Assembly (NCBI RefSeq): GCF_020171625.1 | Contig: NZ_JAIUZY010000006.1 | Coordinates: forward strand, 124,001 to 188,000 | Source: Salipiger bermudensis | GTDB taxonomy: Bacteria; Pseudomonadota; Alphaproteobacteria; Rhodobacterales; Rhodobacteraceae | Direction of reading: 5' to 3' | Length of the DNA stretch: 64,000 nt | Shown: one piece after another, positions 16,084-35,953 of the stretch | How the letters are laid out: each line of letters starts with the position of its first letter | Numbering within the stretch: position 1 is the stretch's first letter | Position numbers and translations under genes: made by a program | Notes under the pieces: model-generated | What the model saw: the letters and a program-made list of their open reading frames with translations, nothing else | Databases searched by the model: none | What the model was told of the DNA's origin: nothing

Positions 16084-16122
16084 TCTCCCCACTCCTTTTG
16101 TTGACAGGCTTCGTCCTGCCTA

Positions 16123-16159
16123 TATAGTTCGACATCGAACGATACTGCTTCGAACTATA
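16123..16159. promoter_or_regulatory. MarR-type operator cluster
   Basis: TATAGTTCG at 16123-16131 is repeated inverted as CGAACTATA at 16151-16159. Within it GTTCG-ACAT-CGAAC (16127-16140) forms a second perfect palindrome. So three half-sites with the core TTCGA are packed into 37 bases between marR and the ligase gene. This is the obvious repressor target for both divergent genes. Confidence 0.75.
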
Positions 16160-16224
16160 CGAAGCGGATCCTACTTTGCCCGGTCGGAGGGGGCCGGGCA
16201 AGCAGGGACTGGGAGGAGGACGCG

Positions 16225-18761: not shown

Positions 18762-18763
18762 GC

Positions 18764-19666: not shown

Positions 19667-19709
19667 TCCGGCCCTTGGCCGCACGAGAGTTTCAATGGGA
19701 GGAGAAACC

Positions 19710-20732: not shown

Positions 20733-20793
20733 CCTGCCCCCGCTCCGCGCGCAGAGCGCGGGGCGGCCCCCTCCCCTGCCCGGAGTTACGCCC

Positions 20794-21312
20794 ATGCCCG
20801 CCACGAGCGCCCTGATGCGCCGCACGGCCGCGGCGGTCGAGACGGTTGCCGCGCTCTGTCTCGCCGCGGTGACGATCATCGTCTTCGTCTCGGCCCTCGG
20901 CAGATACCTGTTCGCGACCCCGATCCCGGACGCCTTCGACCTCTCGCGCCTGCTGCTCGGCCTCGCGGTGGCCTGGGGCTATGCCGTGCTCGGCTTCCGC
21001 GGCGGCCATATCTGCGTCGACCTGCTGGTCGAGGCGCTGCCCGCGCGCCCGCGCCGGCTGGTCGAGGCGTTCGCGCAGGCGATGCTGCTGCTCTTCACGG
21101 CGCTGCTGGCGTGGAAGGTCTTCGGGCGTGTCGCCAGTGCCTTTGCCTCGCAGGAGGCGACCTTCGATCTGCGGCTGCCGACCTGGCCGCTGCTCGGGGC
21201 GATCTGGCTCGGGCTTGCGGTGGCGGTGCTGACCACCTTCGCCGGGCTGGTCCGGCTGCTGGCCGGGCAGAACCTGCACGATCTCGATCCCGAGGAGCAT
21301 GGCTATGAGTGA
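20794..21312 (+). CDS. TRAP transporter small permease (DctQ family)
   Basis: 172 residues with four membrane segments. Seen: VSALGRYLFATPIPDAFDLSRLLLG (Arg-Tyr after the first helix, then the amphipathic E/D-x-x-R segment) and GFRGGHICVDLLVEALP, matching the family RxGGHIxVDLL motif. It pairs with DctM, whose start lies inside its last codons (8-base overlap). Confidence 0.9.
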   Translation: MPATSALMRRTAAAVETVAALCLAAVTIIVFVSALGRYLFATPIPDAFDLSRLLLGLAVAWGYAVLGFRGGHICVDLLVEALPARPRRLVEAFAQAMLLLFTALLAWKVFGRVASAFASQEATFDLRLPTWPLLGAIWLGLAVAVLTTFAGLVRLLAGQNLHDLDPEEHGYE

Positions 21313-22600
21313 AGCCGATTTCGTCGCCGTCGCCGGCTTCGTGGCGCTGTTCGGGCTGATGGCCCTGCGCGTTCCGGTGGGCATCGCCATGGGGCTCGTC
21401 GGAGTGGGCGGATTCGCCCAGATCGCCGGCTGGGGCCCGGCCCTGAACCAGCTGGCGATCTCGCCGCTGCGCACGATCACCGATTACAACACCTCGCTGA
21501 TCCCGATGTTCATCCTGATGGGGGTGTTCGCCACCCGCTCGGGGATCTCGGGCGAGCTCTTCGGCGCGGCCCGGGCCTGGGTCGGCCACCTGAGGGGCGG
21601 GCTCGGCCTTGCCACCATCTCTGCCTGCTCCGGGTTCGCGGCGATCTCGGGCTCTTCGGTTGCGACCGCGGCCACGATGAGCCGCGTCGCCCTGCCCGAG
21701 ATGCGCCGCGCCGGTTACCGCGACGAGCTGGCGACCGGGGTCATCGCCTCGGGCGGGACGCTCGGCATCCTGATCCCGCCCTCGGTGGTTCTGGCGATCT
21801 ACGGCTACATCACGCAGCAGGACATCGGCACGCTGTTCATCGCCGGCGTGGTGCCGGGCCTTCTCGCGGTGGCGATGTATCTCGGGGTGGTGTGGCTGAT
21901 CGCCGGCAAGCAGGCCACGCGTGGCGCGCGCATGGATCTGCGCGCCCGCCTCGTCGCGCTGCGCGGCATCTGGGCCGTGGTGCTGCTGTTCGTCGCGGTG
22001 GTCGGCGGCATCTACGCCGGGGTCGTGACCCCGACCGAGGCCGCGGCGGCGGGCGCTTTCCTCACCGGGCTCATCGGGGTGCTGCGCGGCAAGCTCGGGC
22101 TGCGCGAGCTGCGCACCTGTCTGGTCGAGGCGCTGCGCACCGCCGTGTCGATCTACACCATCCTGATCGGCGCGATTCTGTTCAGCTATTTCCTCGCGAT
22201 CACACAGACGCCGCAGAAGATCACCGCCTGGCTCACCGGGCTCGATCTCGGCGCCTATCCGACGCTCGCGCTGATCCTGCTGTTCTTCCTCTTCATGGGC
22301 TGCATCCTCGATGCCATGGCGATGATCATCCTGCTGGTGCCGATCGTCTACCCGGTCGTCATGTCGCTCGGCTTCGATCCGATCTGGTTCGGCATCATCA
22401 TCGTCATGACGGTCGAGCTTGGCATGATCACCCCGCCCATCGGCATGAATGTCTACGTGATCAACGCGGTGATCCGCGACACTAAGCTCATCACGATCTT
22501 TCGTGGCGTGATGCCCTTCGTCGCCGTCGATCTCCTGCGGCTGGTGCTGCTCGCCGCGATCCCGGCGATCACGCTGTGGCTGCCGCAGACCATGAACTGA
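21305..22600 (+). CDS. TRAP transporter large permease (DctM family)
   Basis: 431 residues with about 12 membrane segments. Seen: FGLMALRVPVGIAMGLVG, IPMFILMGVFATRSG, CSGFAAISGSSVATAATMSRVALPEMRRAGY in pieces, IASGGTLGILIPPSVVLAIYG, TPTEAAAAGAF and ELGMITPPIGMNVYVINAV. Two ATGs occur at 21299 and 21305; the second has GAGGAG at the right distance. Last gene of the MarR-controlled operon. A 7-bp G+C hairpin (22620-22636) follows within 40 bases but has no T-run. Confidence 0.9.
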   Translation: MSEADFVAVAGFVALFGLMALRVPVGIAMGLVGVGGFAQIAGWGPALNQLAISPLRTITDYNTSLIPMFILMGVFATRSGISGELFGAARAWVGHLRGGLGLATISACSGFAAISGSSVATAATMSRVALPEMRRAGYRDELATGVIASGGTLGILIPPSVVLAIYGYITQQDIGTLFIAGVVPGLLAVAMYLGVVWLIAGKQATRGARMDLRARLVALRGIWAVVLLFVAVVGGIYAGVVTPTEAAAAGAFLTGLIGVLRGKLGLRELRTCLVEALRTAVSIYTILIGAILFSYFLAITQTPQKITAWLTGLDLGAYPTLALILLFFLFMGCILDAMAMIILLVPIVYPVVMSLGFDPIWFGIIIVMTVELGMITPPIGMNVYVINAVIRDTKLITIFRGVMPFVAVDLLRLVLLAAIPAITLWLPQTMN

Positions 22601-22796: not shown

Positions 22797-23462
22797 TCAG
22801 GTCACGCCCCTGATCTGCAACTCGGCGACCTCGTGCGCCATCGCCTCTTGGGTCTCGGGGCGTTCATCCGGGCGCGGGCGGTACCAGATCGCCATCCAGT
22901 TGACGGCCCCGAGAATGCCCTTCACCGCAAGAGAGACATCGGCGGTCTCGCGCACGCTTCCGTCGGCCTGCCCTTCACGGAAGACCTGCACGAAAAGCTG
23001 TTCGAACTGGTGCCGGACATCCATCAACTCGTTGAGAATGACCCGCTGCTCGGGGGTGGTGGCGCTTAGCCTGTGCAGGTGCACGCCCTGCACGACGACA
23101 GCCTCGTAGGCGACATTCTGCATCATGGTCAGGGCGTGGGCCTCGACCATCCGCTGAAGCTTTTCGCGGCCCGTGCCGCCTGCGTCGATCGCGGCGGTCA
23201 CGGCATCCATCAGGCGCGTCATGCCCTCGCGATGAACCTCGAAGAAGAGGTCCGTCTTTGACCGGAAGTAGTGGTAGATCCGACCCTTCGTCGCGCCGAG
23301 ACGGCGGGCCACATCGTCGATGCTGGTGCCTTGGAAACCCATCTCGGTGAAGCAAAGCGCTGCGCAATCAAGGATTTCGACGACGCTTTCGACAAGGTTG
23401 CCCGACTCTTCGTGGCCGCGGATCCTTGATGCCCACTCGCGATGAATGCCTTCGTTCGCCAC
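22797..23462 (-). CDS. TetR-family regulator of the acyl-CoA regulon
   Basis: 221 residues. Seen: helix-turn-helix FQGTSIDDVARRLGATKGRIYHYFRSKTDLFFEV (recognition part TKGRIYHYF) near residues 44-77, the TetR hallmark; the C-terminal part resembles the ligand domain of PaaR/FadR-like TetR proteins (VKGILGAVNWMAIWYRP). GTG start with GGAGGG upstream. It is divergent from the MaoC-SDR-thioesterase-thiolase operon, and a perfect ACATACT-N4-AGTATGT palindrome lies between. The same palindrome recurs at 32806. Acyl-CoA is the usual inducer in this subgroup. Confidence 0.9.
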   Translation of the reverse strand: MANEGIHREWASRIRGHEESGNLVESVVEILDCAALCFTEMGFQGTSIDDVARRLGATKGRIYHYFRSKTDLFFEVHREGMTRLMDAVTAAIDAGGTGREKLQRMVEAHALTMMQNVAYEAVVVQGVHLHRLSATTPEQRVILNELMDVRHQFEQLFVQVFREGQADGSVRETADVSLAVKGILGAVNWMAIWYRPRPDERPETQEAMAHEVAELQIRGVT

Positions 23463-23574
23463 CCGGTGCCCTCCGGTGAGTTCTTGGTTTTTATGTCATC
23501 CAAGCCATAAAACGGATCGCGAAATCAAACAACAATCTTCGCATCTCGGATCAGGCCTGGACAGTGTGCGGATA

Positions 23575-23592
23575 ACATACTACGCAGTATGT
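23575..23592. promoter_or_regulatory. TetR-type operator, copy 1
   Basis: ACATACT-ACGC-AGTATGT, a perfect 7-bp inverted repeat with 4-base spacer, 39 bases before the MaoC start and 113 before tetR. A copy identical in both arms lies at 32806-32823. Confidence 0.8.
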
Positions 23593-23630
23593 CGTAGGTG
23601 TAAAGCCATGACTTCTCAAGGACACTCCCA

Positions 23631-24059
23631 ATGCATGATGCGGCCGCTTCGTTCGCTTCCGACTGGATCACGGTCGACCAGGGCATGGTCGACCGGTTCG
23701 CCGACACCATCGACGATCACCAGTTCATCCATGTCGACCCGGACCGCGCGAAGGCCGAAAGCGCCTATGGCGGCACCATCGTGCACGGGTTCTTCGTGCT
23801 CTCGCTTCTGACCGCCTTCACGCGCACTGCCCTGCCCCCCACGGGAGCCGGCGCCGTCGAGGTGAACTGCGGCTTCGACAAGGTGCGGTTCCTCGCGCCG
23901 GTGCCGGTCGGGTCCCGCCTGCGGGGCCGCTTCAGCGTGGCGGGTGAAACGGCGAAAGCCGGGGGCGTCCTGCGCAGCTACGCGGTCAGCGTCGAGATCG
24001 AGGGCGCGGATCGCCCGGCGCTTGCCGCGGACTGGCTGGTGCTGGTGGTCGACGGCTGA
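23631..24059 (+). CDS. MaoC-like hot-dog enoyl-CoA hydratase
   Basis: 142 residues, a single hot-dog domain. Seen: MVDRFADTIDDHQFIHVDPDRA and GGTIVHGFFVLSLL, which together contain the R-hydratase signature (D…H in DDHQFIHVD and the IVHG motif). The family hydrates trans-2-enoyl-CoA to (R)-3-hydroxyacyl-CoA. AAGGA ribosome site. It opens the TetR-controlled operon and precedes an MFE-2-type SDR that would oxidise the (R)-hydroxyacyl-CoA, so the pair makes stereochemical sense. Confidence 0.85.
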   Translation: MHDAAASFASDWITVDQGMVDRFADTIDDHQFIHVDPDRAKAESAYGGTIVHGFFVLSLLTAFTRTALPPTGAGAVEVNCGFDKVRFLAPVPVGSRLRGRFSVAGETAKAGGVLRSYAVSVEIEGADRPALAADWLVLVVDG

Positions 24060-24128
24060 GGCTGAAGGCGGCCGGACGCGGCCACAACTGGACATTCTCA
24101 AACGACAAACGGCTCGGAGGACATCGAC

Positions 24129-25046
24129 ATGCCGGTTTCATTCAAGGATCAAGTCGCGATCGTCACGGGTGCGGGCGGCGGTCTGGGCCGCTCTCACGCC
24201 CTGATGCTGGCGCGTCACGGTGCGGCGGTCGTGGTGAACGATTTCGGCGGCGGCCGGGACGGGAGCGGCGGCACCACCGAGGCCAGCGAGGCCGTGGTGC
24301 GCGAGATCACCGCCGAGGGCGGCCGGGCCATCGCCAATGCCGGCAACGTCACCTCCGAGGCCGACATGGCCGAGATGGTGGAGCAGACGCTGTCGGCGTT
24401 CGGGCGCATCGACGTGCTGATTAACAACGCCGGCATCCTGCGCGACAAGAGCTTCGCGAGGATGGAGATCGACGATTTCCGCCGCGTCGTCGATGTGCAC
24501 CTGCTGGGCACGGCGATTGCCACCAAGGCAGTCTGGGCCCAGATGCGCGAACAGGGCTATGGCCGCATCCTCGTCACCTCCTCGACCTCCGGCAGCTATG
24601 GCAACTTCGGCCAGGCGAATTACGGCGCCGCCAAGATGGGGGTGCTCGGGCTGATGAACGTGCTGCATTTCGAGGGCGCGAAATACGGCATCCACCTGAA
24701 CGCCATCCTTCCGACCGCGGCGACCCGGATGACCGGCGACATGATGGACCCGGCGATGCTCGACCTTCTGGCGCCGGAGCTCGTCTCGCCGGCGGCGGTC
24801 TGGCTCGTCAGCCGCGACGCGCCCTCGCGCACCGCCTTGCTGGCCGGGGCGGGCACCGTGGCCCGCCTGGCGCTGGTCGAAAGCCAGGGCGTATGCTTTG
24901 CCGGCACCGAGTTCACCCCCAGCACAGTCGGCGACCGCTTCGACGAGATCGCCAGTCTCGATGGCCAGATCGAGGTGATGGCAGGGCTCGACCATGTCGA
25001 CCGGATCATCGCCAACGCCCGCGCGGCGCTGGCCGCGGAGGGCTGA
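24129..25046 (+). CDS. MFE-2-type SDR, (R)-3-hydroxyacyl-CoA dehydrogenase-like
   Basis: 305 residues. Seen: VTGAGGGLGRSHALMLARHG near residue 12, the long insertion VVNDFGGGRDGSGG near 38 (a mark of peroxisomal-type multifunctional enzyme 2 dehydrogenases), LINNAGILRDKSFARM near 95, SSTSGSYGNFGQANYGAAKMG with catalytic Ser/Tyr/Lys, and NAILPTAATRMT. The C-terminal tail lacks the hydratase and SCP2 domains of MFE-2, which here are replaced by the separate MaoC gene upstream. GGAGG ribosome site. Probably oxidises the hydroxyacyl-CoA with NAD+. Confidence 0.9.
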   Translation: MPVSFKDQVAIVTGAGGGLGRSHALMLARHGAAVVVNDFGGGRDGSGGTTEASEAVVREITAEGGRAIANAGNVTSEADMAEMVEQTLSAFGRIDVLINNAGILRDKSFARMEIDDFRRVVDVHLLGTAIATKAVWAQMREQGYGRILVTSSTSGSYGNFGQANYGAAKMGVLGLMNVLHFEGAKYGIHLNAILPTAATRMTGDMMDPAMLDLLAPELVSPAAVWLVSRDAPSRTALLAGAGTVARLALVESQGVCFAGTEFTPSTVGDRFDEIASLDGQIEVMAGLDHVDRIIANARAALAAEG

Positions 25047-25050
25047 GCGC

Positions 25051-25539
25051 ATGTCCGAGCGTCTCGAGCCGCTGCCGCAGGACGCCTATGGCTGGCATTA
25101 CGCCACCGCGCCGCAATGGGCCGATTCCGATCTCTACGGCCACGTCAACAACGTGGCCTACCTGCGCTATTTCGATACCGCCATGAACATGGCCCTGCTC
25201 AACTACGACGCGCTCGACCTCTCGGCTTCGGGCGCCGGGCCGATCGGGCTCGTGGTGCGCAACGGGGCCCAGTTCTTTCGCGAGATCACCTTTCCCGCAA
25301 GTCTCAGCGTCGGGGTGCGGATCGAGGCCGTCGGACGCACCAGCCTGACCTGGGGCTTCGGTCTCTTCGATCTCGCGGCGGGGGCCTGTGCCGCGCGGGG
25401 GCAGTTCGTTCATGTCTATGTCGACCGCGCCACCCGCCGCCCGGTGCCGCTCACCCCGGCGCTGCGGGCCTGTGCCGACGCGCTGTTCCGCGATCCTGCG
25501 ACCGACCCCGCCACCGACAAAGAGGAGGCCCCGAAATGA
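25051..25539 (+). CDS. Hot-dog acyl-CoA thioesterase (4HBT family)
   Basis: 162 residues. Seen: [23 protein letters not shown], the 4HBT/YbgC-type active-site stretch with catalytic Asp and GHVNN, then a beta-sheet pattern ending [18 protein letters not shown]. It starts 4 bases after the SDR stop and its stop overlaps the thiolase start (ATGA). It may release CoA from a dead-end or final acyl-CoA. The C-terminal tail is rich in DPAT repeats and unstructured. Confidence 0.85.
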
Positions 25540-26738
25540 GGGAAGCCGTCATCGTCTCGACCGCCCGCACTCCGATCGGAAAGGCCTATCGCGGCGCGTT
25601 TAACGCCACCACCGCGCCCCGGCTCATCGGCCATGCCATCGCGCACGCCGTCAGCCGCGCCGGGGTCGAGCCGGGTGAGATCGAGGATGTCGTCGTCGGG
25701 GCCGCCCTACAGCAGGGCACCACGCATATGAATATCGCGCGCACTGGTCTGCTGCGCGCGGGTCTGCCGGTGTCGGTGCCCGGCCAAAGCGTCGACCGGC
25801 AATGCGCCTCAGGACTGATGGCCATCGCCATCGCCGCCAAGCAGATCGTGGCGGACGGCATGACGGTGACCATCGGCGGCGGGGTCGAGCAGATCTCGCT
25901 GGTGCAGACCCCCGAGATGAACACCCGCCACTGGCAGGACCCGTGGCTGTCCGAGCATCTGCCCGCGACCTACATGTCGATGGTCGAAACCGCCGAGATC
26001 GTCGCGCGCGGTCATGGCGTCCGCCGCGAAGATCAGGATGCCTACGCCCTGCGCTCGCAGCAGTGCACCGCCGCGGCACAGGAGGCGGGCCGGTTCGATG
26101 ACGAGATCGTGCCGATCACCACGCTCATGCAGGTCACGGACCGGCAGAGCGGCGCCACCTCGATGCAGGAGGTGACGCTGAGCCGGGACGAGGGCAATCG
26201 TCCGGGAACCACGCTGGAGGGGCTCGCGGGACTGTCGCCGGTGTTCAGGGACGGCCAGCAGATCGCTGAGGGCGCGTATGTCACCGCGGGCAATGCTTCG
26301 CAGCTCTCCGACGGCGCCTCTGCCGCGGTGCTGATGGAGCGGGCCGAGGCCGAGCGTCGCGGGCTCGCCCCGCTGGGCCTCTATCGGGGCATCGCCGTCG
26401 CGGGCGTGTCGCCGGACGAGATGGGCATGGGCCCGGTGCCGGCGGTGCGCAAGCTGCTGGCAACGCACGGGCTGCGCGTCGAGGATATCGGCCTGTGGGA
26501 GCTGAACGAGGCCTTTGCCGCGCAGGTCCTGCCCTCGCGCGATCAGCTGGGCATTCCCGACGAGCTGCTCAACGTCAATGGCGGCGCGATCTCGATCGGG
26601 CATCCCTACGGCATGTCAGGCGCGCGGATGGTCGGGCACGCGCTGATCGAAGGCAAGCGGCGCGGCGCGCGCTATGTCGTCGTCACCATGTGCGTCGGCG
26701 GGGGCATGGGCGCGGCCGGGCTGTTCGAAGTGCTCTGA
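25536..26738 (+). CDS. Acetyl-CoA acyltransferase (thiolase)
   Basis: 400 residues, full-length degradative thiolase. Seen: [15 protein letters not shown] at the N-terminus, the nucleophile in [14 protein letters not shown] (Cys 90), [15 protein letters not shown] near 255, NEAFAAQV near 325, [17 protein letters not shown] with catalytic His near 355, and the second Cys in [13 protein letters not shown] near 386. It removes acetyl-CoA (or propionyl-CoA) from a 3-ketoacyl-CoA, completing the steps provided by the MaoC and SDR genes. ATGA overlap with the thioesterase gene. A strong terminator follows. Confidence 0.95.
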
Positions 26739-26763
26739 CAGCCCATCCCGCCCACGAATCCAG

Positions 26764-26792
26764 ACGGCCGCCGGGTCCCCCGGCGGCCGTTT
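26764..26792 (+). terminator. Terminator after the thiolase operon
   Basis: Perfect 12-bp stem ACGGCCGCCGGG (26764-26775) pairing with 26779-26790, 3-base loop, then TTTG (26790-26793). It lies between two convergent genes and may serve both directions, though the T-run is on the plus strand. Confidence 0.8.
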
Positions 26793-26869
26793 GCTCTTGG
26801 AGGCCTTGGGCAGGGAAAAACCCGCCCGTGTCGCCACGCGCGGGTCTATTGGCCTCGCTATCGAGGGCC

Positions 26870-27346
26870 TCAGCCGAGGCCGGTGCGCCGCTCGAGCCAG
26901 GCCGGGCGTTCGGCCTGCTGGAATTGGTCTGACAGGCGGGCCAGCCTCTCGGCGGTGGCGGGTGGAAACGGGGCGGCATGGGGCGTGCCCGTGTCGCGCG
27001 CCACATGCAGCAACACCTGTTCACACCACGCCAGCAGGGTGCGGTCCCCGGAGCGCATCTCCTGGTAGAGGTGCATCCGCTTGGCGTCTGCGTCCAGCAC
27101 CCGCGTCTCGACCACAAGCGCGTCGCCTTCGTGGCATTCGCGCTGGTAGCCGATCCGCATTTCCAGCGTGTAGAGCGTCGCCCGTGCCGCGGTACGGTAG
27201 GCTTCGTCGAGGCCGATGTCTTCCATCACCGCGGTCACGCTGCGCGAGAAGGCGATGCCATAGGCGAAGTCCCCCATGTGGCCGTTGTAGTCGACCCAGT
27301 CGGACAGCACCCGGAACCGGCTGGGGGGGAGGTCGGGGGCGCTCAT
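26870..27346 (-). CDS. Thioesterase of the 4HBT family
   Basis: 158 residues, hot-dog fold. Seen: SDWVDYNGHMGDFAYGIAFSR near residue 15 (active-site Asp and NGHM), LEMRIGYQRECHEGDALVVETRVLD in parts, and ACEQ-like AWCEQVLLHV. The WVDYNGHM form is the one found in betainyl-/carnitinyl-CoA thioesterases and related proteins next to CaiC-like ligases. That agrees with the CaiC-like ligase at 32913. Start at the ATG overlapping the stop of the permease gene (ATGA). Last gene of the minus-strand ABC operon. Confidence 0.8.
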   Translation of the reverse strand: MSAPDLPPSRFRVLSDWVDYNGHMGDFAYGIAFSRSVTAVMEDIGLDEAYRTAARATLYTLEMRIGYQRECHEGDALVVETRVLDADAKRMHLYQEMRSGDRTLLAWCEQVLLHVARDTGTPHAAPFPPATAERLARLSDQFQQAERPAWLERRTGLG

Positions 27347-28317
27347 TTGCGCCTCCATGCGGGAAGCCGGTGACGCAGTTCCCCCACGATGCCACGGCGG
27401 AACAGCAGCACGCAGGCGATGAAGGTCGCGCCGAGAACCGTGGTCACCGGGAAGCCGGAGGTGGCGAGGTGGTTCTGCAGCGTGACGACGAGGCCCGCGC
27501 CGACGATCGGCCCGGCAATGCTGCCGATGCCGCCCAGCAGGGTCATCAGGATGACCTCACCGGACATGTGCCAGTTGACGTCCGTCAGGGTGGCGAACTG
27601 GAACAGCAGCGCCTTGAGGCTGCCGGCAAGACCGGCGAAGCCCGCCGACATCACGAAAGCCCCCAGCTTGTAGCGCTGCACCGAGTAGCCGAGCGAAATC
27701 GCGCGCTGCTCGTTCTCGCGGACCGCCTGCAGGATCATCCCGAAGGGCGAATGTACGATGCGCCAGATCGCGAAGAGGCTGGCCACGAACACCGCGGCGA
27801 AGACGTAATAGAGCGTCATGCTGTCGGCGAGGTCGAGGAGCCCGAACAGTTTGCCACGGGAAAAGCCCTGGATGCCGTCCTCGCCATGGGTGAACGGCGC
27901 CTGCAGGCAGAAGAAGTAGAACATCTGCGACAGGGCCAGCGTCACCATGGCGAAGTAGATGCCCTGACGGCGCACCGCGAGCAGCCCGATCACCAGCCCC
28001 AGACCCAGCGCCGCCCCGACACCGGCGAGGATGGCGAACTCGGGGTTGATCTCCCAGACCTTGAGGGCGTGGGCCGTGACATAGGCCGCCCCTCCAAAGA
28101 AGGCGGCGTGGCCGAAGGACAGCAGCCCTCCGTAGCCAAGCAGCAGGTTGAAGGCCGACGCGAAGAGCGCGAAGCACATCAGCTTCATCAGGAGCACCGG
28201 ATAGATCCAGAGCGGAAGCAGCAGCAGCGCGCCGATCAGCGCCAGGACGAGGACCCGCTGGGCCGGGTGCGGTCGACGGGACTCCGCGACCGACTCGTAA
28301 TCTTCGGCGACGATCAT
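27343..28317 (-). CDS. livM: ABC importer permease, LivM type
   Basis: 324 residues with about nine to ten membrane segments. Seen: FALFASAFNLLLGYGGLLSFGHAAFFGGAAY in pieces (NLLxGYxGLLSFGHAAFFG is the LivM signature), and the EAA-like loop GRKF-equivalent VRENEQRAISLGYSVQRYKL. C-terminal GGIGSIAGPIVGAGL is also typical. It pairs with LivH (1-base gap) in the membrane. The operon also has both ATPases and a binding protein, so the importer is complete. Confidence 0.9.
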   Translation of the reverse strand: MIVAEDYESVAESRRPHPAQRVLVLALIGALLLLPLWIYPVLLMKLMCFALFASAFNLLLGYGGLLSFGHAAFFGGAAYVTAHALKVWEINPEFAILAGVGAALGLGLVIGLLAVRRQGIYFAMVTLALSQMFYFFCLQAPFTHGEDGIQGFSRGKLFGLLDLADSMTLYYVFAAVFVASLFAIWRIVHSPFGMILQAVRENEQRAISLGYSVQRYKLGAFVMSAGFAGLAGSLKALLFQFATLTDVNWHMSGEVILMTLLGGIGSIAGPIVGAGLVVTLQNHLATSGFPVTTVLGATFIACVLLFRRGIVGELRHRLPAWRRK

Positions 28318-28318
28318 G

Positions 28319-29206
28319 TCAGTATTCCTTTCCGAACAGACCCGCCGGGCGCAGCATCAGCACCACGGCCATGATGATGAAGATCGCGATGTTCGCGGCC
28401 TCGGGGTAAAATACCTTGGTCAGCCCCTCGACGATGCCGAGAAGATAGCCGGTCGCGATGGCGCCGAGGATCGAGCCCATGCCGCCGACCACGACCACCG
28501 CGAAGATGATGATGATGAGGTTCGACCCCATCGTCGGGCTGACCTGAAAGACCGGCGCGGCCAGAACCCCGGCGATGCCCGCAAGGGCGCAGCCGAAGGC
28601 GTAGGTCAGCGTGAGCAGCAGGGGCACGTTGACGCCGAAGGCCTGCACCAGCGTGGCATCCTCGGTCGCCGCACGCAGATAGGCGCCGATCTTGGTCTTC
28701 TCGATCAGCGCCCATGTGCCGAGGCAGAGCACGAGCGACGCGATCACCACCCAGCCGCGATAGATCGGCACGGTCACGAAATCGGTCCTCACAACGCCCT
28801 TCATCGCGTCGGGCGCCGAGAACGGTTTGCCCGAGGCGCCGTAGACATGCTGGAACAGCCCCTCCAGAAGCAGGGCAAGCCCGAAGGTGAAAAGCAGCCC
28901 GTACAGGTGGTCGAGATCGTAGAGGCGCCGCAGCATGGTGCGTTCGACGACCGCGCCCACGAGGCCGACAATCAGCGGAGCCAGCAGCAGCGCGCCCCAG
29001 AACCCGATGCCCAGATACTGCCCCAGCATCCAGGCGGTGAAGGCGCCCAGCATGTAAAAGGCCCCGTGGGCAAAGTTCACCACGCGCAGCAGGCCGAAGA
29101 TCACCGCGAGGCCCAGCGACAGCAGCGCGTAGAACGAGCCGTTGATCAGGCCGATGAGCAGCTGCCCGGTGAGGACAGGTAGCGGCATCCCGAGTATCAT
29201 TGTCAT
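28319..29206 (-). CDS. livH: ABC importer permease, LivH type
   Basis: 295 residues with about eight membrane segments. Seen: LINGSFYALLSLGLAVIFGLLRVVNFAHGAFYMLGAF in pieces (the GLxxIFGxxxxxNFAHG motif of LivH), LRAATEDATLVQAFGVN at the EAA loop, and GMGSILGAIATGYLLGI. It lies 1 base after livF ends and 1 base before livM. Confidence 0.9.
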   Translation of the reverse strand: MTMILGMPLPVLTGQLLIGLINGSFYALLSLGLAVIFGLLRVVNFAHGAFYMLGAFTAWMLGQYLGIGFWGALLLAPLIVGLVGAVVERTMLRRLYDLDHLYGLLFTFGLALLLEGLFQHVYGASGKPFSAPDAMKGVVRTDFVTVPIYRGWVVIASLVLCLGTWALIEKTKIGAYLRAATEDATLVQAFGVNVPLLLTLTYAFGCALAGIAGVLAAPVFQVSPTMGSNLIIIIFAVVVVGGMGSILGAIATGYLLGIVEGLTKVFYPEAANIAIFIIMAVVLMLRPAGLFGKEY

Positions 29207-29207
29207 A

Positions 29208-29951
29208 TCAAACCCCCAGCGCCGTGTTCAGCGCCTCTCGCTTTTCGGGCAGCTCGGCCACGGCAAAGCTGTCGATCATCACGCCATGATCCATGACGTA
29301 GAAGTGGTCGGCGTTCCTTGCCGCGAACCGGAAATTCTGTTCGACCAGCAATACGCTCAGCCCGTGGGCCTTCAGCGCGGCCAGCATCTCGCCGATGCGG
29401 TTCACGATCACCGGGGCCAGCCCTTCGGTCGGCTCGTCGAGAAGGATCATGCTGACGCCGGTGCGCAGGATGCGGGCGATGGCCAGCATCTGCTGCTCGC
29501 CGCCGGAGAGCTTGGTGCCCGGGCTGTGCCGGCGCTCGAGCAGGTTCGGAAACAGCGTGTAGATCTCCTCGAGCGACATCTCCATGCCGCTGTTGGCCAC
29601 CTTCGGCGGCAGCAGCAGGTTCTCCTCGACGGTGAGCGAGGCGAAGATGCCACGCTCCTCGGGAACGAACCCCATACCGGCGTGGGCGACCCGGTGCGGC
29701 GCCAGCCGCAGGATCGATCGCTGGTCAAAGTCGATCTCGCCACGGCGTTTGCGCAGGATGCCCATCAGGCTGCGCAGGGTGGTGGTCTTGCCGACCCCGT
29801 TGCGGCCGAGAAGTGTGACCGTCTCGCCCGGGTAGACATCGAGGTCGACCCCGTAGAGCGCCTGGCTTTCGCCGTACCAGGCTTCGAGCCCCCGGACCTT
29901 CAGCAGCGCCGGGCCGCGCGCCTCGCGCGGTGTCGCGGATCCGTCAGTCAT
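29208..29951 (-). CDS. livF: ABC importer ATPase, LivF type
   Basis: 247 residues. Seen: Walker A GRNGVGKTTTLRSLMG near residue 45, Q-loop region FVPEERGIFASLTVEENL, ABC signature LSGGEQQMLAIARIL near 140, Walker B MILLDEPTEGLAP and H-like VEQN. The PEERGIFxSLTVxENL stretch is LivF-specific. The start is inside the 3' end of livG (8-base overlap). Confidence 0.95.
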   Translation of the reverse strand: MTDGSATPREARGPALLKVRGLEAWYGESQALYGVDLDVYPGETVTLLGRNGVGKTTTLRSLMGILRKRRGEIDFDQRSILRLAPHRVAHAGMGFVPEERGIFASLTVEENLLLPPKVANSGMEMSLEEIYTLFPNLLERRHSPGTKLSGGEQQMLAIARILRTGVSMILLDEPTEGLAPVIVNRIGEMLAALKAHGLSVLLVEQNFRFAARNADHFYVMDHGVMIDSFAVAELPEKREALNTALGV

Positions 29952-30738
29952 CGTCCTCGGCTCCCATATAGGCTTCGCGCACGCGGGGATCGGCGCTGAC
30001 CTCGGCATAGCTGCCATGGGTCAGGATCTCGCCGCGCTGAAGCACTGTGATGTCGTGACCGATATCGGCCACGACCTTGATGTTGTGTTCCACCATCAGC
30101 ACCGCGCAGTCGCGGGCGACATCTGCGATCAGGCCCGCCATGGTCTCGACGTCCTCCTGCCCCATGCCCGCCAGCGGCTCGTCCAGCAGCAGCACCTTGG
30201 GATCGAGGGCCAGCGTCGTGGCGATCTCGAGCGCGCGCTTGCGCCCGTAGGACAGGTCCGCGGCGCGCCGGGCGGCCATGTCGGCAAGCCCGACGCGTCC
30301 CAGCAGCTCCATCGCGCGGGGGCGCAGCCGGGACAGGCTGCCGAGCGGACGCCAGAACTGCACCGCCAGCCCGTTGGGCCGCTGCAGCGCCACGCAGACG
30401 TTGTCGACCAGCGACATGTCTCCGAAGGTCGCCGAGATCTGGAATGAGCGCGCCACCCCGAGCCGGGCGACATGGGCCGGGTCCATGCGGGTGATTTCGG
30501 TCTCGCCGAACATGATCTTGCCCGCGGTCGGCTGCAGGAACTTGGTCAACAGGTTGAACACCGTGCTCTTGCCCGCGCCGTTCGGCCCGATCAGGGCGTG
30601 GATCCGGCCGTGATGAATGTCGATGTCGACGTCGTTCACCGCCTGGAAGTTTCCGAAGCTCTTGCTGAGACCCCGTGCCGACAATGCGGCACGGGACTCC
30701 GCCGGCGCGTACTGCGCCGGAACGGTAGCCATCGTCAT
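29944..30738 (-). CDS. livG: ABC importer ATPase, LivG type
   Basis: 264 residues. Seen: Walker A GPNGAGKSTVFNLLTKFL near residue 50, Q-loop LGVARSFQISATFGDMSLVDNV, the signature DLSYGRKRALEIATTLALDPKVL (LSYG replaces LSGG, usual for LivG), Walker B VLLLDEPLAGMG and MVEHNIKVV with the switch His. The start at 30738 has a GGGTGAG ribosome site and lies 11 bases after the binding-protein stop. Confidence 0.95.
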   Translation of the reverse strand: MTMATVPAQYAPAESRAALSARGLSKSFGNFQAVNDVDIDIHHGRIHALIGPNGAGKSTVFNLLTKFLQPTAGKIMFGETEITRMDPAHVARLGVARSFQISATFGDMSLVDNVCVALQRPNGLAVQFWRPLGSLSRLRPRAMELLGRVGLADMAARRAADLSYGRKRALEIATTLALDPKVLLLDEPLAGMGQEDVETMAGLIADVARDCAVLMVEHNIKVVADIGHDITVLQRGEILTHGSYAEVSADPRVREAYMGAEDDD

Positions 30739-30749
30739 GAACTCACCCT

Positions 30750-31955
30750 TCAGTCGTCGAGGAGCGGACAGGCGCTCTGCTCGATCGGACGGAAGGCCTC
30801 GTCGCCCGGGATGGTGCGCAGAACCTTGTAGTAGTCCCACGGGCCCTGCGACTCTTCGGGGGTCTTGACCTGCACGAGGTACATGTCGTGCACCACGCGG
30901 CCATCCTTGCGCAGATAGGCGTTGCGGTTGAAGAAGTCGTCGATATCCATGCCGCGCATGGTCTCCATGACCTGCGAGCCGCTGGTCGCCTGGCCCGAGG
31001 CCTCGGCTGCCTTGAGATAGTTCAGCACCGCCGAGTAGACGCCGGCATGCACCATGGTCGGCATCTTGCCGTCCATGCGCTCGGCAAAGCGTTGCGACCA
31101 GGCGCGGGTGTCCTCGTCCATGTCCCAGTAGAAGGCGGTGGTCAGCGTCAGGTTCTGCGCGATCTCGAGGCCGACGCCATGCACGTCGGTGAGGAACAGC
31201 AGCATCCCGGCGATGTCCTGACCGGCGGCGGTGATGCCGAACTCTTCGGCCTGCTTCAGCGCCGTCATCGTGTCGCCCGACGAATTCGCCAGCGCGATCA
31301 CATCCGCGCCCGAGGCCTGAGCCTGCAGCAGGTAGGACGAGAAGTCCGAGGTTTCGCGCGGGTGGGTGACCTTGCCGACGACCGTGCCACCGGCGGCTTC
31401 CACCGCGGCGGTCGTGTCCGCCTCGAGCGCATGGCCGAAGGTGTAATCGACGGTCAGGAAGAACCAGTTCTTGTCGCCTTCCAGCGTCATCGCCCGGCCG
31501 GTGCCGTTCGCCAGCGCGTAGGTGTCCCACGTCCACTGCGCCGTCGAGGGCGAGCAGGACGCGCCGGTCAGCTCGGAGGAGCCGCCGGTCGAGATCAGCA
31601 GCGCGGTATCGCTCTGCCGGGTGATCTCCTGCACGGCAAGCGCGACCGACGAGGTCGGCAGGTCGATGATGGCGACGACGTTTTCCTCGTCGATCCAGCG
31701 GCGGGCGAGCGTCGAGCCGACATCCGGCTTGTTCTGGTGATCGCCGACGATCACCTCCACCTCTTCGCCAAGAAGCGTGCCGCCGAAATCCTCGACCGCC
31801 ATGCGCGCGGCGACTTCCGAGCCCTTGCCCGACAGGTCGAAGTTCATGCCCGACATATCGGTGAGAACACCGAGCCGATAGGGCTCGGCCTGCGCCCCCG
31901 CCGCAAGCCCGATCGAGAATAGACACGCCAGAGCGGCCCTGTTCAGTTTCGTCAT
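30750..31955 (-). CDS. ABC importer periplasmic binding protein (Peripla_BP_6)
   Basis: 401 residues with a signal peptide ending AAGAQAE. Seen: YRLGVLTDMSGMNFDLSGKGS at the mature N-terminus (the LTDxSG opening common in these proteins), AVEDFGG, VGDHQNKPDVGSTLARRW, and KNWFFLTVDYTFGHALEADT near 155, the standard hinge segment. This subgroup is often annotated as branched-chain amino acid binding, but homologues next to acyl-CoA enzymes bind aromatic or other carboxylates. GGGAGGAG ribosome site. First transport gene of the operon that starts with the hydratase at 32775. Confidence 0.9.
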   Translation of the reverse strand: MTKLNRAALACLFSIGLAAGAQAEPYRLGVLTDMSGMNFDLSGKGSEVAARMAVEDFGGTLLGEEVEVIVGDHQNKPDVGSTLARRWIDEENVVAIIDLPTSSVALAVQEITRQSDTALLISTGGSSELTGASCSPSTAQWTWDTYALANGTGRAMTLEGDKNWFFLTVDYTFGHALEADTTAAVEAAGGTVVGKVTHPRETSDFSSYLLQAQASGADVIALANSSGDTMTALKQAEEFGITAAGQDIAGMLLFLTDVHGVGLEIAQNLTLTTAFYWDMDEDTRAWSQRFAERMDGKMPTMVHAGVYSAVLNYLKAAEASGQATSGSQVMETMRGMDIDDFFNRNAYLRKDGRVVHDMYLVQVKTPEESQGPWDYYKVLRTIPGDEAFRPIEQSACPLLDD

Positions 31956-32028
31956 TGGTTTACTCCTCCCGTTTCGCACCGAAAGCGGTGCATGTTTGGC
32001 CGGCCGCCCCCTTGCCCCGGCCCTTGCT

Positions 32029-32775
32029 TCAGCCCGTGCGCCCGCCTTCGGCAAGCAGCCGGGCCAGAAGAAACTGGTCCCCCTCGGCGCCCTCGGCCCA
32101 GTTGCGCCGGGCGTGGGCGTCGATGGCGGATTTGGTCATGCGCAGCGACATCGCCGGGCTTTCGGCGATCGAGGCGGCCCAGCTTTGCGCGGCGTCGAAA
32201 GCGGTGCCCGCCGGGACCTTTCGGTCGGCCAACCCCAGCGCCAGCGCCTCGTCGGCGTCGATGGTCTCGTCACAGCACAGGATCCGTTTGGCCCGTCCGG
32301 CGCCGACCCGTTCGGTCAGCAGCGGCAGACCGCCCCAGCCCAGCGTCATGCCGAGACGGACCTCGGGAAAGCGCAGGTAGCCCTCTTCCGAGATGACGCG
32401 GAAATCGGCACAGAGCGCGAGGATGGCCCCGCCGCCAATCGCCGGCCCCTCAAGCGCGGCAATGACGATCTGCGGCAGGCGCCGCCACGCATTGCTCATC
32501 CGCGCGCCCGCATTCATCGACAGGTGACGGGCGACATCCCCGCCCTCGGGATTCCACAGCCGTTCGTCCTTCAGATCGACGCCGGCGGCGAAGATGCCTG
32601 GCGTGCCCGTGATCACGACGACAGACACATCGGGGTTGCGCGACAGCTCGATCGCGGTGGCCTCCAGACGGTCGATCAGCGCGTAATCCAGCGCATTGGC
32701 CTTGCCGCCACGGTCGAATCGTACCGCCGCGATGGCGCCCTGAATCTCGACTTCCACACCTGTCATTTCGGTCAT
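32029..32775 (-). CDS. Enoyl-CoA hydratase/isomerase family protein (CaiD-like)
   Basis: 248 residues, crotonase fold. Seen: FDRGGKANALDYALIDRLEA near residue 18, IFAAGVDLKDE near 62 (oxyanion hole), and ALEGPAIGGGAILALCADFRV near 100, then FPEVRLGMTLGWGG. The usual first catalytic Glu after GGG (GGGxE) is replaced (GGGAILAL), while Glu of FPEVRLG remains. Loss of the first acid is known in dehydratase/isomerase-type or decarboxylase-type crotonases, so a reaction other than plain hydration is possible. The start downstream of the 32806 operator is favoured; AAGGG precedes it. Leads the minus-strand operon. Confidence 0.85.
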   Translation of the reverse strand: MTEMTGVEVEIQGAIAAVRFDRGGKANALDYALIDRLEATAIELSRNPDVSVVVITGTPGIFAAGVDLKDERLWNPEGGDVARHLSMNAGARMSNAWRRLPQIVIAALEGPAIGGGAILALCADFRVISEEGYLRFPEVRLGMTLGWGGLPLLTERVGAGRAKRILCCDETIDADEALALGLADRKVPAGTAFDAAQSWAASIAESPAMSLRMTKSAIDAHARRNWAEGAEGDQFLLARLLAEGGRTG

Positions 32776-32805
32776 TTTCCCTTGTCGTCGTCCCGCTATC
32801 GTGAG

Positions 32806-32823
32806 ACATACTACCAAGTATGT
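32806..32823. promoter_or_regulatory. TetR-type operator, copy 2
   Basis: ACATACT-ACCA-AGTATGT. Both 7-bp arms are identical to the site at 23575-23592; only spacer base three and four differ. It lies 31 bases before the hydratase/ABC operon start and 90 bases before the CaiC-like ligase, so it can govern both divergent units. Confidence 0.8.
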
Positions 32824-32912
32824 TGCATGTCGAGTCGCGCCGATGCAATATGAAAATTGCGAGCGTGACGACCGGCGCGCCCGGAGATTGACCTTTTCTT
32901 GAGGAGGAAGAG

Positions 32913-34541
32913 ATGGCCCAGACGTCCACGGATACGGCCCCCGAAAGCACCATGGGCGCCGATCCCGCGCTCGATCGGAACAGGTCTGTCCTGCGCTATA
33001 TCCTTGACGGATACGCCGAGACCCAACCCGACGCGCCGTTCGTCCAGTTCTGGCCCGGGCCGCTGTGGAGCTATGGCGAGTTGCACCGTCGCGTGCGGCT
33101 GCGGGCGAGCGCGCTGGCGCGGGCCGGCGTCCGGCGCGGCGACCATGTGCTCTGCCTGATGGGCAACAGCCCCGACCTTCTGTGCACGTGGTTCGCGATC
33201 AACTACCTCGGCGCCGCCTATGTCCCGATCAACACCGGGGCGCGCGGGCAGATGCTCGAACATATTTTGGCGGATGCGGATGCCGCCGTGCTCGTTGCAC
33301 AGGCCGAGCTGGTCGAGCGTCTGGCCGGGCTGAACGCCGGCGCGGTCACCAGCGTTCTGGTGGTCGAGGGCGAGGCCGCCGCCATCGACGGCTATGACAT
33401 CGCGCCGCTGGTCGATCCGGAGGAAGAGAACCCCGAGGCGCTGGACCTGTCCCAGCCGATCGAGCCGTGGGACCTTCATGCGATCATGTACACCTCGGGC
33501 ACCACGGGAAACGCCAAGGGGGTGATGAGCACCTATGCCCAGCACTATACCATTGGCCCGGACGCTTTCGAGGTCGCCGAGGACGACCGCTGCATGATCT
33601 GCGGTCCGATCTTTCACTGTGGCTCGACGCTTTACGTGAATGCCATGCTGGCGCGCGGCCTGTCGATCGGGATGATGCGCGAGTTCAAGACCGACACCTT
33701 CTGGCAGGCGGTGCGCGAGACCGGCTCGACCTATTGCCTCCTGCTCGGAGTGATGGCCGCCTTCCTGCTGAAGGCCCCTGCCCGCCCGGATGACCGAGAC
33801 CACCCGTTGCGGCGCGCCTTCATCACGCCGTTCGGCGAAGACGGCCCGCTGTTCGCGCAGCGCTTCGGCGTGGAGGCCTGGACGATCTACAACATGACCG
33901 AGATTGCCAGCCCGATGCACGCGGGCCCCGGCATTACCACCAAGGGCATCGCCGGCAAACCGCGTCCATGGTGCGAGCTGCGGATCGTCGACGAAAACGA
34001 TATCCCCCTGGGCGCCGGTGAAACCGGCGAGCTGATCATCCGCTCGCATCGGCCCTGGGCGCTGATGTCGGGCTATTACAACAACCCCGCCGCCACGGTG
34101 GAGGCGATGCGCAACGGATGGTTCCACACCGGCGACAGCTTTCGCCGCGACGCGGATGGCACCTATTACTTCGTCGACCGGCTGAAAGACGTGATCCGGC
34201 GGCGCGGCGAGAACATCTCGTCCTTCGCGCTGGAAAGCGAGGTGCTGAACCTCCCCGAGATTCGCGAATGCGCCGCTGTGGCGGTCCCGTCCGAGTTCTC
34301 GGAGGACGATGTCCTGATTGTCGTGGCCCCCGCCGAGGGGCAGAGGATCGACCCGGTTTCGGTCAGCGAACGCCTGTCGGCGACGCTTCCGCGCTTCATG
34401 GTGCCGCGCTACCTTCGGGTGCTGGACGACCTGCCAAAGACGGCCTCGGGCAAGGTGCAGAAGCACCTGCTGCGCAAGGCGGGTGTGACCGCAGACACCT
34501 GGGATCGCGAGGCGGACAAGCGCGCCCGTGCGCGCGCCTGA
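32913..34541 (+). CDS. CaiC-like AMP-forming acyl-CoA ligase
   Basis: 542 residues, ANL family. Seen: IMYTSGTTGNAKGVMSTYAQ at residue 191, the A5 motif YNMTEIASPM near 328, WFHTGDSFRRDADG near 405, the hinge DRLKDVIRRRGENISSFALE near 420 and the C-terminal Lys in KTASGKVQKHLLRKAG near 515. RRRGENIS(S)xxxE in place of RGGENIxPxEIE is the mark of the crotonobetaine/carnitine-CoA ligase group. GAGGAGG ribosome site. It should activate the acid brought in by the adjacent ABC importer; the substrate need not be carnitine. Confidence 0.9.
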   Translation: MAQTSTDTAPESTMGADPALDRNRSVLRYILDGYAETQPDAPFVQFWPGPLWSYGELHRRVRLRASALARAGVRRGDHVLCLMGNSPDLLCTWFAINYLGAAYVPINTGARGQMLEHILADADAAVLVAQAELVERLAGLNAGAVTSVLVVEGEAAAIDGYDIAPLVDPEEENPEALDLSQPIEPWDLHAIMYTSGTTGNAKGVMSTYAQHYTIGPDAFEVAEDDRCMICGPIFHCGSTLYVNAMLARGLSIGMMREFKTDTFWQAVRETGSTYCLLLGVMAAFLLKAPARPDDRDHPLRRAFITPFGEDGPLFAQRFGVEAWTIYNMTEIASPMHAGPGITTKGIAGKPRPWCELRIVDENDIPLGAGETGELIIRSHRPWALMSGYYNNPAATVEAMRNGWFHTGDSFRRDADGTYYFVDRLKDVIRRRGENISSFALESEVLNLPEIRECAAVAVPSEFSEDDVLIVVAPAEGQRIDPVSVSERLSATLPRFMVPRYLRVLDDLPKTASGKVQKHLLRKAGVTADTWDREADKRARARA

Positions 34542-34786
34542 GGCGGCCCCCCCTTCCCCGCCGCCTGCCGCGGACCGGGCGCCAGCGCCCCCTGATCGGG
34601 ATTTCACATGTCCCCCCGGAGGCCCCTGAATGACCCTACGCCGCTCCGGGATGCCGGCGTGAGAGACGGCGCCGTTCGGCGGGGTCGGACCAGCGGACCT
34701 CGGGCGTGGCAGCGCACGTCCCGGCCTCAGACCTTTTGCAGCGCGGCCTGATCGCCCTGCGCAATCTCAAGACAAGGACTTCCCCT

Positions 34787-35953
34787 ATGACGGATGGCAT
34801 TGCACCTTTCTCCTTCGACAGCCCCGGTTCGATCTGCGTCGATTGGGGCGGCGCGCGGCGGATCGGCGAGCTCCTTTCGGGCTGGTTCGCCGAGCGCACC
34901 CTGCTGATCGTGACGGACCGCTTCCTGCACGAGAGCGGCGCTCTCGATCCCGCTCTGGCCTCGCTGGCGGCGAATGGTTTCTCGGTCACCGTCTTCGACG
35001 AGGTGGTGGCGGATCCGCCGGAAGCGGTGCTTATGGCCTGCGTCGAACAGGGCAAGGCCGCCGGCGCGGACCTCGTGATGGGGCTTGGCGGCGGGTCGTC
35101 CATGGATATCGCAAAGCTGGCGGCGGTGCTGCTGGTCAGTGCGCAAGAGCTGTCCGATCTCTACGGCATCGGCAAGATCCGTGGGGAGCGCATGCCGCTG
35201 GTGCAGGTGCCCACCACCGCGGGCACCGGATCGGAGATGACCAACATCACCATCCTGACCACCGGCGAGACCACAAAGATGGGCATCGTCGGGCACCAGC
35301 TCTATGCGGATCGGGTGCTGCTCGATGCCGAACTGACCGTCGGCCTGCCCGGTGTGCAAACCGCCGCGACCGGGATCGACGCCATGGTCCATGCCATCGA
35401 GGCCTTCACCAGCCGTCACCGCAAGAACCCGCTGTCGGACGTCTTCGCGCGCGAAGCCATGCGCCTGATGGCGCCGAACCTCGTGACCGCCTGCACCGAG
35501 CCGGACAACCGTGCCGCGCGTGAGGCCATGCTTCTCGGGGCGGCGCTCTCGGGGCAGGCCTTTGCCAACAGCCCCGTGGCCGCGGTCCATGCGCTGGCCT
35601 ATCCGCTTGGGGGCCACTACCACCTGCCGCACGGCCTGACCAATGCGCTGATGCTGGGGCCCGTACTGCGCTACAACATGCGCGCCGCGGCCCCGCTCTA
35701 TGCAGAGCTTGCCGACGTGGTGCTTGGCGCGTCCGAGGAGGGCGTGCAGGCGCGCGCGGCCGGCTTCGTCGCGTTCATGGAGGACCTGATGGACCGCTCG
35801 GGGGCGCCCCGTCGCCTGCGCGACTGCGAGGTGTCCGAAGACAGCCTGCCCACGCTCGCCCGGGACGCCATGCTGCAGACCCGCCTGCTGGTCAACAACC
35901 CGGTCGAGGTCACCGAAGCGGATGCTCTGGCCCTGTACAGAGAAGCCTTCTAG
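34787..35953 (+). CDS. Iron-containing alcohol dehydrogenase
   Basis: 388 residues. Seen: GLGGGSSMDIAKLAAVLL near residue 100, VPTTAGTGSEMTNITIL near 140, TGIDAMVHAIEAFTS near 200 and ALAYPLGGHYHLPHGLTNALML near 265 with the metal histidines. The sequence differs clearly from the other Fe-alcohol dehydrogenase at 10633, so it is not a recent duplicate. It follows the CaiC-like ligase after 245 bases on the same strand and may belong to the TetR module, perhaps oxidising an alcohol precursor or product. The start is at MTDGIAPF; a GTG at 34706 without a ribosome site is less likely. Confidence 0.85.
   Translation: MTDGIAPFSFDSPGSICVDWGGARRIGELLSGWFAERTLLIVTDRFLHESGALDPALASLAANGFSVTVFDEVVADPPEAVLMACVEQGKAAGADLVMGLGGGSSMDIAKLAAVLLVSAQELSDLYGIGKIRGERMPLVQVPTTAGTGSEMTNITILTTGETTKMGIVGHQLYADRVLLDAELTVGLPGVQTAATGIDAMVHAIEAFTSRHRKNPLSDVFAREAMRLMAPNLVTACTEPDNRAAREAMLLGAALSGQAFANSPVAAVHALAYPLGGHYHLPHGLTNALMLGPVLRYNMRAAAPLYAELADVVLGASEEGVQARAAGFVAFMEDLMDRSGAPRRLRDCEVSEDSLPTLARDAMLQTRLLVNNPVEVTEADALALYREAF

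Follow-up and report, generated by a model that had tools for sequence, protein, structure and literature searches.

A predicted TetR regulon with two matching operators joins a Liv-type importer to acyl-CoA enzymes in Salipiger bermudensis

The stretch of DNA analysed here, 64,000 nucleotides of a contig of Salipiger bermudensis (NZ_JAIUZY010000006.1, positions 124,001 to 188,000) and called the window below, carries between its positions 22797 and 35953 an island of 14 genes with two copies of the palindrome ACATACT-N4-AGTATGT, which we propose as the operators of one TetR-type regulator. The first predicted operator lies at 23575..23592 (ACATACTACGCAGTATGT, spacer ACGC), between tetR and maoC, 112 bp before the former and 38 bp before the latter. 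The second is found at 32806..32823 (ACATACTACCAAGTATGT, spacer ACCA), between the crotonase gene (ech) and the ligase gene, 30 and 89 bp before them, respectively; neither site is assigned to a strand. Both are exact and their starts are 9,231 bp apart, which bears out a preliminary description of this DNA as regards the identical 7-base arms about 9.2 kb from each other and their placement, upstream of the maoC operon and between the ech/importer operon and the ligase.

The regulator gene (22797..23462, minus strand) encodes a DarR-like protein of 221 amino acids (aa) with the Pfam domains TetR_N and TetR_C_24. Across the first site, the plus strand codes for a MaoC-type enoyl-coenzyme A (CoA) hydratase of 142 aa (23631..24059; PF01575), a short-chain dehydrogenase/reductase (SDR) of 305 aa resembling the (3R)-hydroxyacyl-CoA dehydrogenase of multifunctional enzyme type 2 (MFE-2; 24129..25046), a 4HBT_2 hot-dog thioesterase recognised by Pfam, TE1 (25051..25539), and an acetyl-CoA C-acyltransferase, or thiolase (25536..26738), which overlaps TE1 by ATGA. 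The likeness to peroxisomal MFE-2 concerns its SDR part (2et6, E 1.2e-120), whereas in the window SDR and MaoC are separate, bacterial proteins. The Asp and the His of the MaoC motif D-x4-H are kept in all 30 aligned sequences, and the RQCASG motif of the thiolase is present in 27 of 27. With 405.5 bits for TIGR01930 (cut-off 240.55), the thiolase is the only one of ten scanned window proteins above a curated NCBIfam cut-off among the best 25 matches per protein. Where the thiolase and TE2 genes converge, a strong hairpin (26745..26800, no strand assigned; predicted RNA fold of -35.2 kcal/mol) lies between them and is likely a terminator.

The minus strand then holds a second 4HBT_2 thioesterase, TE2, with a distant likeness to betainyl-CoA thioesterases (26870..27346), followed by a LivM-like permease (27343..28317), a LivH-like permease (28319..29206), a LivF-like ATPase (29208..29951), a LivG-like ATPase (29944..30738), a LivK-type periplasmic binding protein with a Peripla_BP_6 domain (30750..31955), and a crotonase-fold protein that has just the second catalytic Glu and is isomerase-like in this respect (32029..32775). 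Beyond the second site, the plus strand encodes a PRK06155-like acyl-CoA ligase of the AMP-binding family (32913..34541) and an iron-containing alcohol dehydrogenase recognised by Pfam (Fe-ADH; 34787..35953). Ten of the 14 proteins were scanned with Pfam and NCBIfam, and the four Liv permease and ATPase genes were identified by their annotated orthologues (those of LivM are annotated as branched-chain amino acid ATP-binding cassette, ABC, transporter permease), so that the gene content agrees with that first described. These matches assign families and no finer function. The ligase reaches 475.4 bits for NF004808, under its cut-off of 722, and 231.2 bits for the crotonobetaine/carnitine-CoA ligase model NF005947 (cut-off 651); the label "CaiC-like" given to it earlier is thus justified as family resemblance and not as CaiC identity. 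No acyl-CoA dehydrogenase is present among the 14 genes.

The absence of the first catalytic Glu in the crotonase, also claimed before, is a general trait. In the 30 aligned sequences, the window's included, that position is occupied by Ile (28), Val (1) or Leu (1), and the second Glu is kept in all of them, the catalytic columns having been assigned from known crotonase motifs. The window protein thus does not have the pair of residues of two-Glu enoyl-CoA hydratases. The pattern is reminiscent of Delta3-Delta2 isomerases, and hydroxycinnamoyl-CoA hydratase-lyases also do without the first Glu. None of the catalytic-motif alignments contains L012, L079, the own or sister copies, or matches that are partial or distant (coverage below 85% or identity below 44%).

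The palindrome is rare. Allowing up to three mismatches, the window contains two matches and no third, compared with a mean of 0.11 in 100 dinucleotide shuffles, none of which had two or more. In the whole 4.74 Mb genome, at up to two mismatches, the same two places are found and no others; a control pattern, the palindrome read backwards, gave one forward and one reverse match genome-wide. A promoter-like match for tetR has a weak consensus -10 that overlaps the first site.

The same arrangement is met in relatives. In a genome-wide search of 20 hand-chosen genomes, 16 contain the motif, in exactly two places in every one, and the four with no match are those of L030, L036, L037, and L038; the control pattern gave six matches across four of the same 20 genomes. 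All 30 loci fetched around the 32 motif places are at ech/ligase or at tetR/maoC. When the core ATACT-N4-AGTAT was scanned in the intergenic stretches bounded by these genes, no more than one mismatch was found at the first site in 30 of 33 rows (exact in 23) and at the second in 38 of 38 (exact in 33); among these rows are those of the own genome (L001; L002, L005, L107), further ones of the sister genome in addition to L012 (L003; L004, L108), and those of two Haematobacter massiliensis strains. The spacer always begins with AC in the distinct rows whose flanks sufficed for tabulation (29 at site 1, 24 at site 2); L030, outside this table, has AA. In the tabulated rows, the arms and these two bases hardly vary, against values of about 0.3 to 0.8 for most columns of the flanks, and conservation of the second site covers about 23 bp (GACATACTAC-N2-AGTATGTTGCA). 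Records of the Ochrobactrum type have the maoC operon in inverted orientation beside the ligase operon, and its site has moved along with it. In a genus-level search, the sites were found in two of 20 genomes, the own genome counted. The sites and their conservation can be read directly from the DNA, as can the gene set, the enzyme families, and the motifs, and we think it very likely that the two sites define one shared regulon.

The regulator supports this view. The four closest solved chains are named DarR (E 1.7e-36 to 1.2e-35); a fatty acid metabolism regulator protein comes fifth (1.5e-35), and the next match is at 1.5e-24. According to PMC10636190, DarR of Mycobacterium and Rhodococcus has the operator ATACT(N)4AGTAT, to which two interacting dimers bind via TxC half-sites read by Lys44 and Gly45. 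This operator is matched exactly at both predicted sites, one of them beside tetR. Thr43, Lys44, Gly45, and Tyr48 of the DarR recognition helix are matched by the window protein, whereas Tyr49 is replaced by His; all 24 aligned TetR sequences, which take in the distant cousins L006, L030, L036, L037, and L039, have retained the Thr-Lys-Gly and the Tyr. With the invariant AC of the spacer, the operator contains TAC a second time, and this copy would fit the third TxC half-site in the two-dimer binding of DarR. In the genome, no close TetR paralogue was found, the next best matches being 25-29% identical. On these comparisons, the link between TetR and operator is strongly predicted.

What this TetR senses probably differs from the DarR signal, because the nucleotide signature is mostly not kept and no cyclase was matched. 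The cyclic-nucleotide signature W-x6-Q-x7-L of DarR reads W-x6-E-x7-M in the window protein, and its Gln is kept in five of the 24 aligned sequences, with Glu or Asp in the other 19. This genome and 14 relatives have no match to diadenylate cyclase (PF02457), for which 11 of 14 control genomes were positive. Cyclic di-AMP (c-di-AMP) is therefore unlikely as the signal. The targets differ from those of DarR as well, being here a catabolic island. Among catabolic TetR proteins, a CoA thioester is the usual kind of effector.

A search with the ligase gave 66 loci. The gene counts come from 33 records with a site between ech and ligase, namely 28 of these loci and five plasmid records, the remaining 38 ligase relatives (L034-L040, L044, L048-L077) being left out; as several records are short, the counts are lower bounds, and L047 was scored as ligase-less because its hits were under the length or identity threshold. 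TetR and crotonase occur in all 33 records, and MaoC, SDR, TE1, LivK, and ligase in 32 each, followed by thiolase (28), Fe-ADH (25), TE2 (24), LivG (22), LivF and LivH (21 each), LivM (20), and succinic semialdehyde dehydrogenase (SSADH, 5). At the family level, a ligase relative at E <=1e-120 is encoded in seven of 295 genomes, the own one counted; among the six others, the identity is 69% in one and 46-47% in the remaining five. Rhodobacterales, Hyphomicrobiales, and Azospirillum all have related clusters, some of which are plasmid-borne, in Sulfitobacter (ligase 91.9% identical), Martelella, Ochrobactrum, Haematobacter, and Azospirillum (59%), so that the island probably travels.

The inclusion of Fe-ADH in the set is supported by the 25 clusters that have a relative of it. 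The gene is placed after the ligase in many genomes and after or next to tetR in others, and it ends the maoC operon in Azospirillum, which puts it mostly behind one of the two sites; in Martelella AD-3, exceptionally, it has the opposite orientation. SSADH joins it in Sulfitobacter, Sagittula, two Martelella, and Aquamicrobium. The scan covered four of these five clusters, with the Sagittula copy left out, and gave 702.9, 696, 709.2, and 728.3 bits, above the TIGR01780 cut-off of 646.35. An alignment shows that the Sulfitobacter enzyme and E. coli SSADH have the same residues at the positions that we take to bind the carboxylate. The window holds no SSADH; SSADH-like genes lie elsewhere in the genome (61, 59, and 49% identity). 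Fe-ADH plus SSADH is the composition of blcAB-type 4-hydroxybutyrate oxidation. Here, likewise, Fe-ADH is adjacent to SSADH or one gene apart in the five clusters; the differences are that both are joined to a CoA ligase, beta-oxidation enzymes, and an importer, and that the window Fe-ADH misses the cut-off for 4-hydroxybutyrate dehydrogenase (NF058672, 199.5 of 500 bits). From the five clusters and the SSADH-like genes of the genome, we tentatively propose an exit of carbon in the form of a short hydroxy acid, by way of succinic semialdehyde, to which we give somewhat less than an even chance; such an exit would predict a C6-type omega-oxygenated acid as substrate. The window encodes another iron-type alcohol dehydrogenase at 10567-11751, which shares 36-38% identity with the types found in the clusters.

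For TetR binding, the order of reactions, the inducer, and the hydroxy-acid exit, we infer the following scheme. The DarR-class TetR would bind the two near-identical operators and jointly repress the tetR/maoC and the ech-liv/ligase promoters. The Liv ABC transporter would import one carboxylic acid, which the ligase would join to CoA, and the single-Glu crotonase would probably move the double bond from Delta3 to Delta2. MaoC would then hydrate the product and the MFE-2-like SDR oxidise the (3R)-hydroxy group, a (3R)-hydroxyacyl step being probable because of the MFE-2-like nature of the SDR and fitting the MaoC hydratase. Thiolase would remove acetyl-CoA and a thioesterase would release the short acid; the presence of two thioesterases points to a use of the thiolysis product in its free acid form. 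In most lineages, this would probably be an omega-hydroxy acid, which Fe-ADH would oxidise to the semialdehyde; an SSADH encoded within the cluster or at another place of the genome would then produce a dicarboxylate, for example succinate. The inducer would probably be a CoA thioester of the pathway. With no acyl-CoA dehydrogenase in the island, the substrate is probably already unsaturated or 3-hydroxylated. Acid activation followed by beta-oxidation seems to us a good likelihood, and the complete explanation, with regulon, route, and exit, is in our opinion probable on balance.

Several observations weigh against parts of this scheme. The promoter matches are weak, and the three found are slightly above chance, with 1.1 expected. 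The first site has two mismatches in three records (L078, L021, L081; shuffle p of 0.07, 0.04, and 0.017), and L078 is the Sulfitobacter locus, the closest plasmid relative. The isomerase role of the crotonase is argued from one residue and by analogy with other families. Fe-ADH was not found in eight of the 33 records, two of which have the tetR side cut off; one of the eight is the sister species L012, where about 10 kb were searched on each side. The 245 bp between ligase and Fe-ADH in the window make co-transcription unsure. SSADH is confined to the five records, and Aminobacter L017 has a different aldehyde dehydrogenase (ALDH) behind the ligase (best NF002852, 366 of 648 bits). At the thresholds used, LivMHFG was not found in the Haematobacter, Xanthobacter, and Aquabacter DNA examined, nor was thiolase in that of Haematobacter and Aquabacter, and of the whole set, the Paracoccus metagenome-assembled genome L039 retains TetR, two thioesterases, and ligase alone, along with two sites that each have one mismatch. 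The set is thus not indivisible. The single route from uptake to thiolysis proposed in the preliminary description is favoured by co-conservation and intact catalytic motifs, with these incomplete lineages standing against it; as for joint control, the shared regulon is strongly supported by a DarR-type TetR, the operator known for DarR being the same, and by the restriction to two sites in this genome and in each of the 16 motif genomes.

Other readings of the same genes have to be considered. In a phenylpropanoid beta-oxidation, cinnamate-type acids would be imported, joined to CoA, hydrated, oxidised, and thiolysed to an aroyl-CoA, which a thioesterase would free, with Fe-ADH and ALDH feeding in from the alcohol. 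This would make an acyl-CoA dehydrogenase unnecessary and explain the thioesterases; Liv-type importers for aromatic acids are known, and feruloyl-CoA synthetase is among the best solved relatives of the ligase (4.9e-52). That match is unspecific, however, with gramicidin synthase and FadD5 scoring nearly as high, the four scanned ALDH copies are above the SSADH cut-off and not of aryl-aldehyde type, and the plasmid flanks, as far as they were read, have no gene annotated for aromatic ring cleavage, although their gene table is incomplete and Haematobacter has a cyclohexanecarboxylate cluster as a neighbour. The phd-type phenylpropanoid clusters of actinobacteria share with the island a ligase, hydratase, dehydrogenase, and thiolase; the island differs from them by its Liv importer, its MFE-2/MaoC pair, its two thioesterases, Fe-ADH, and, in some genomes, SSADH. 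On this evidence we regard an aromatic substrate as unlikely. The aromatic Roseobacter gene set of PMC12442348 was set aside too, as it differs from the gene set of this cluster.

A route that turns crotonobetaine or D-carnitine into betainyl-CoA and acetyl-CoA, and in which TE2 releases glycine betaine, appears rather improbable. The best NCBIfam match of TE2 is the thioesterase part of carnitine 3-dehydrogenase (8e-29), its best solved relative is 2hlj, presumably P. putida PP_0301, a source that a literature search did not confirm, and the ligase resembles CaiC-type models. Nevertheless, the score of TE2 for the carnitine 3-dehydrogenase model, about 100 bits, is like that of other stand-alone relatives (mostly 82-117, one 171, among the matches listed), the ligase is under both cut-offs given above, and Liv importers are not the usual betaine type; the genome also has its own carnitine 3-dehydrogenase (615.7 bits, cut-off 592), on the same contig outside the window (G000 C6:13932-15347). 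A carnitine route as first choice was dropped because of the TE2 and ligase scores. Equally small is the chance that we allow for a C6 omega-amino acid, for example 6-aminohexanoate or a derivative of beta-lysine, shortened to 4-aminobutyrate (GABA) for a GABA transaminase and SSADH. In Martelella L149, tetR is indeed followed by Fe-ADH, GABA transaminase (779.1 bits, cut-off 724), and SSADH, one after the other, and ligase and TE2 resemble enzymes of ammonium acids; but the transaminase was seen in one genome only, where the local gabTD could be a coincidence, Aquamicrobium has a different, HemL-like class III aminotransferase (327 of 527 bits), and alcohol dehydrogenase is the more widely kept partner. 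Two separate regulons, sharing the palindrome by descent or chance and answering different inducers, would fit the two divergent promoters and the lineages that lack one part and keep another. Only one DarR-like TetR was found in the genome, however, each of the 16 motif genomes has exactly two sites, and the parts are present jointly on plasmids, which makes this highly improbable. The shared regulon with a beta-oxidation route remains our preferred reading.

Some related loci deserve mention in their own right. Haematobacter (L080, L026, L032) and Xanthobacter (L158) keep LivK without LivMHFG at the thresholds used, so LivK may use a permease encoded elsewhere; Haematobacter, in which thiolase was not found either, still carries both operators, with one mismatch. 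The distant cousins L006, L036, L037, and L030 have a TetR of the same kind (45-47% identity) and, upstream of a Liv operon, a palindrome that resembles this one; no MaoC, MFE-2-like SDR, or thiolase was found in their DNA examined. Two of them, L030 and L036, have an epimerase-type SDR and a flavin monooxygenase as well; trimethylamine monooxygenase was rejected for the L030 copy (133.6 of 675 bits), and for the L036 copy a solved-structure search pointed to no clear function. A Baeyer-Villiger-like ring opening was likewise rejected, the flavin monooxygenase-like genes adjoining ligases just about 46-50% identical, judged too distant, and accompanied in two of three cases by another type of Fe-ADH (about 27-31% identity). 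In Sagittula marina (L159, 1665-7004), a second TetR (44% identical) and a Liv-type importer stand directly behind the first tetR, and in Aquabacter (L148, 3403-5978), a sulfatase and a sulfatase-modifying factor lie between the cluster halves. A literature search found no paper on the ligand of 3i09, a relative of LivK. In the window, a separate divergent unit abuts the regulon (15604-22600) and, as read from its letters, has a MarR-like gene on the minus strand, apparent acyl-CoA ligase, crotonase, SDR, and TRAP transporter genes on the plus strand, and a palindrome-like TATAGTTCGACATCGAACGATA between them.

A TetR-controlled catabolic island with a Liv importer is of an ordinary kind. The claim of an undescribed system holds for the particular set and its substrate and not for the modules, every one of which is of known type, and no description of this cluster was found in the open-licence literature. 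What is new is this island as a member of that kind and a DarR-class regulator in hosts apparently without c-di-AMP. As a speculation that we would not bet on, a DarR branch without the c-di-AMP signal may have kept the DarR operator and become a CoA-thioester sensor controlling a horizontally moving route, which would shorten an omega-oxygenated acid or an omega-amino acid in a single turn of beta-oxidation, hydrolyse the product thioester, and drain the product via succinic semialdehyde. The wide spread of the related clusters suggests that the substrate is probably a widespread environmental acid. We think that the two-site regulon is a clean case, with an operator predicted from a solved regulator, and that it prompts one to ask to which signal DarR-type repressors respond in hosts that apparently make no c-di-AMP.

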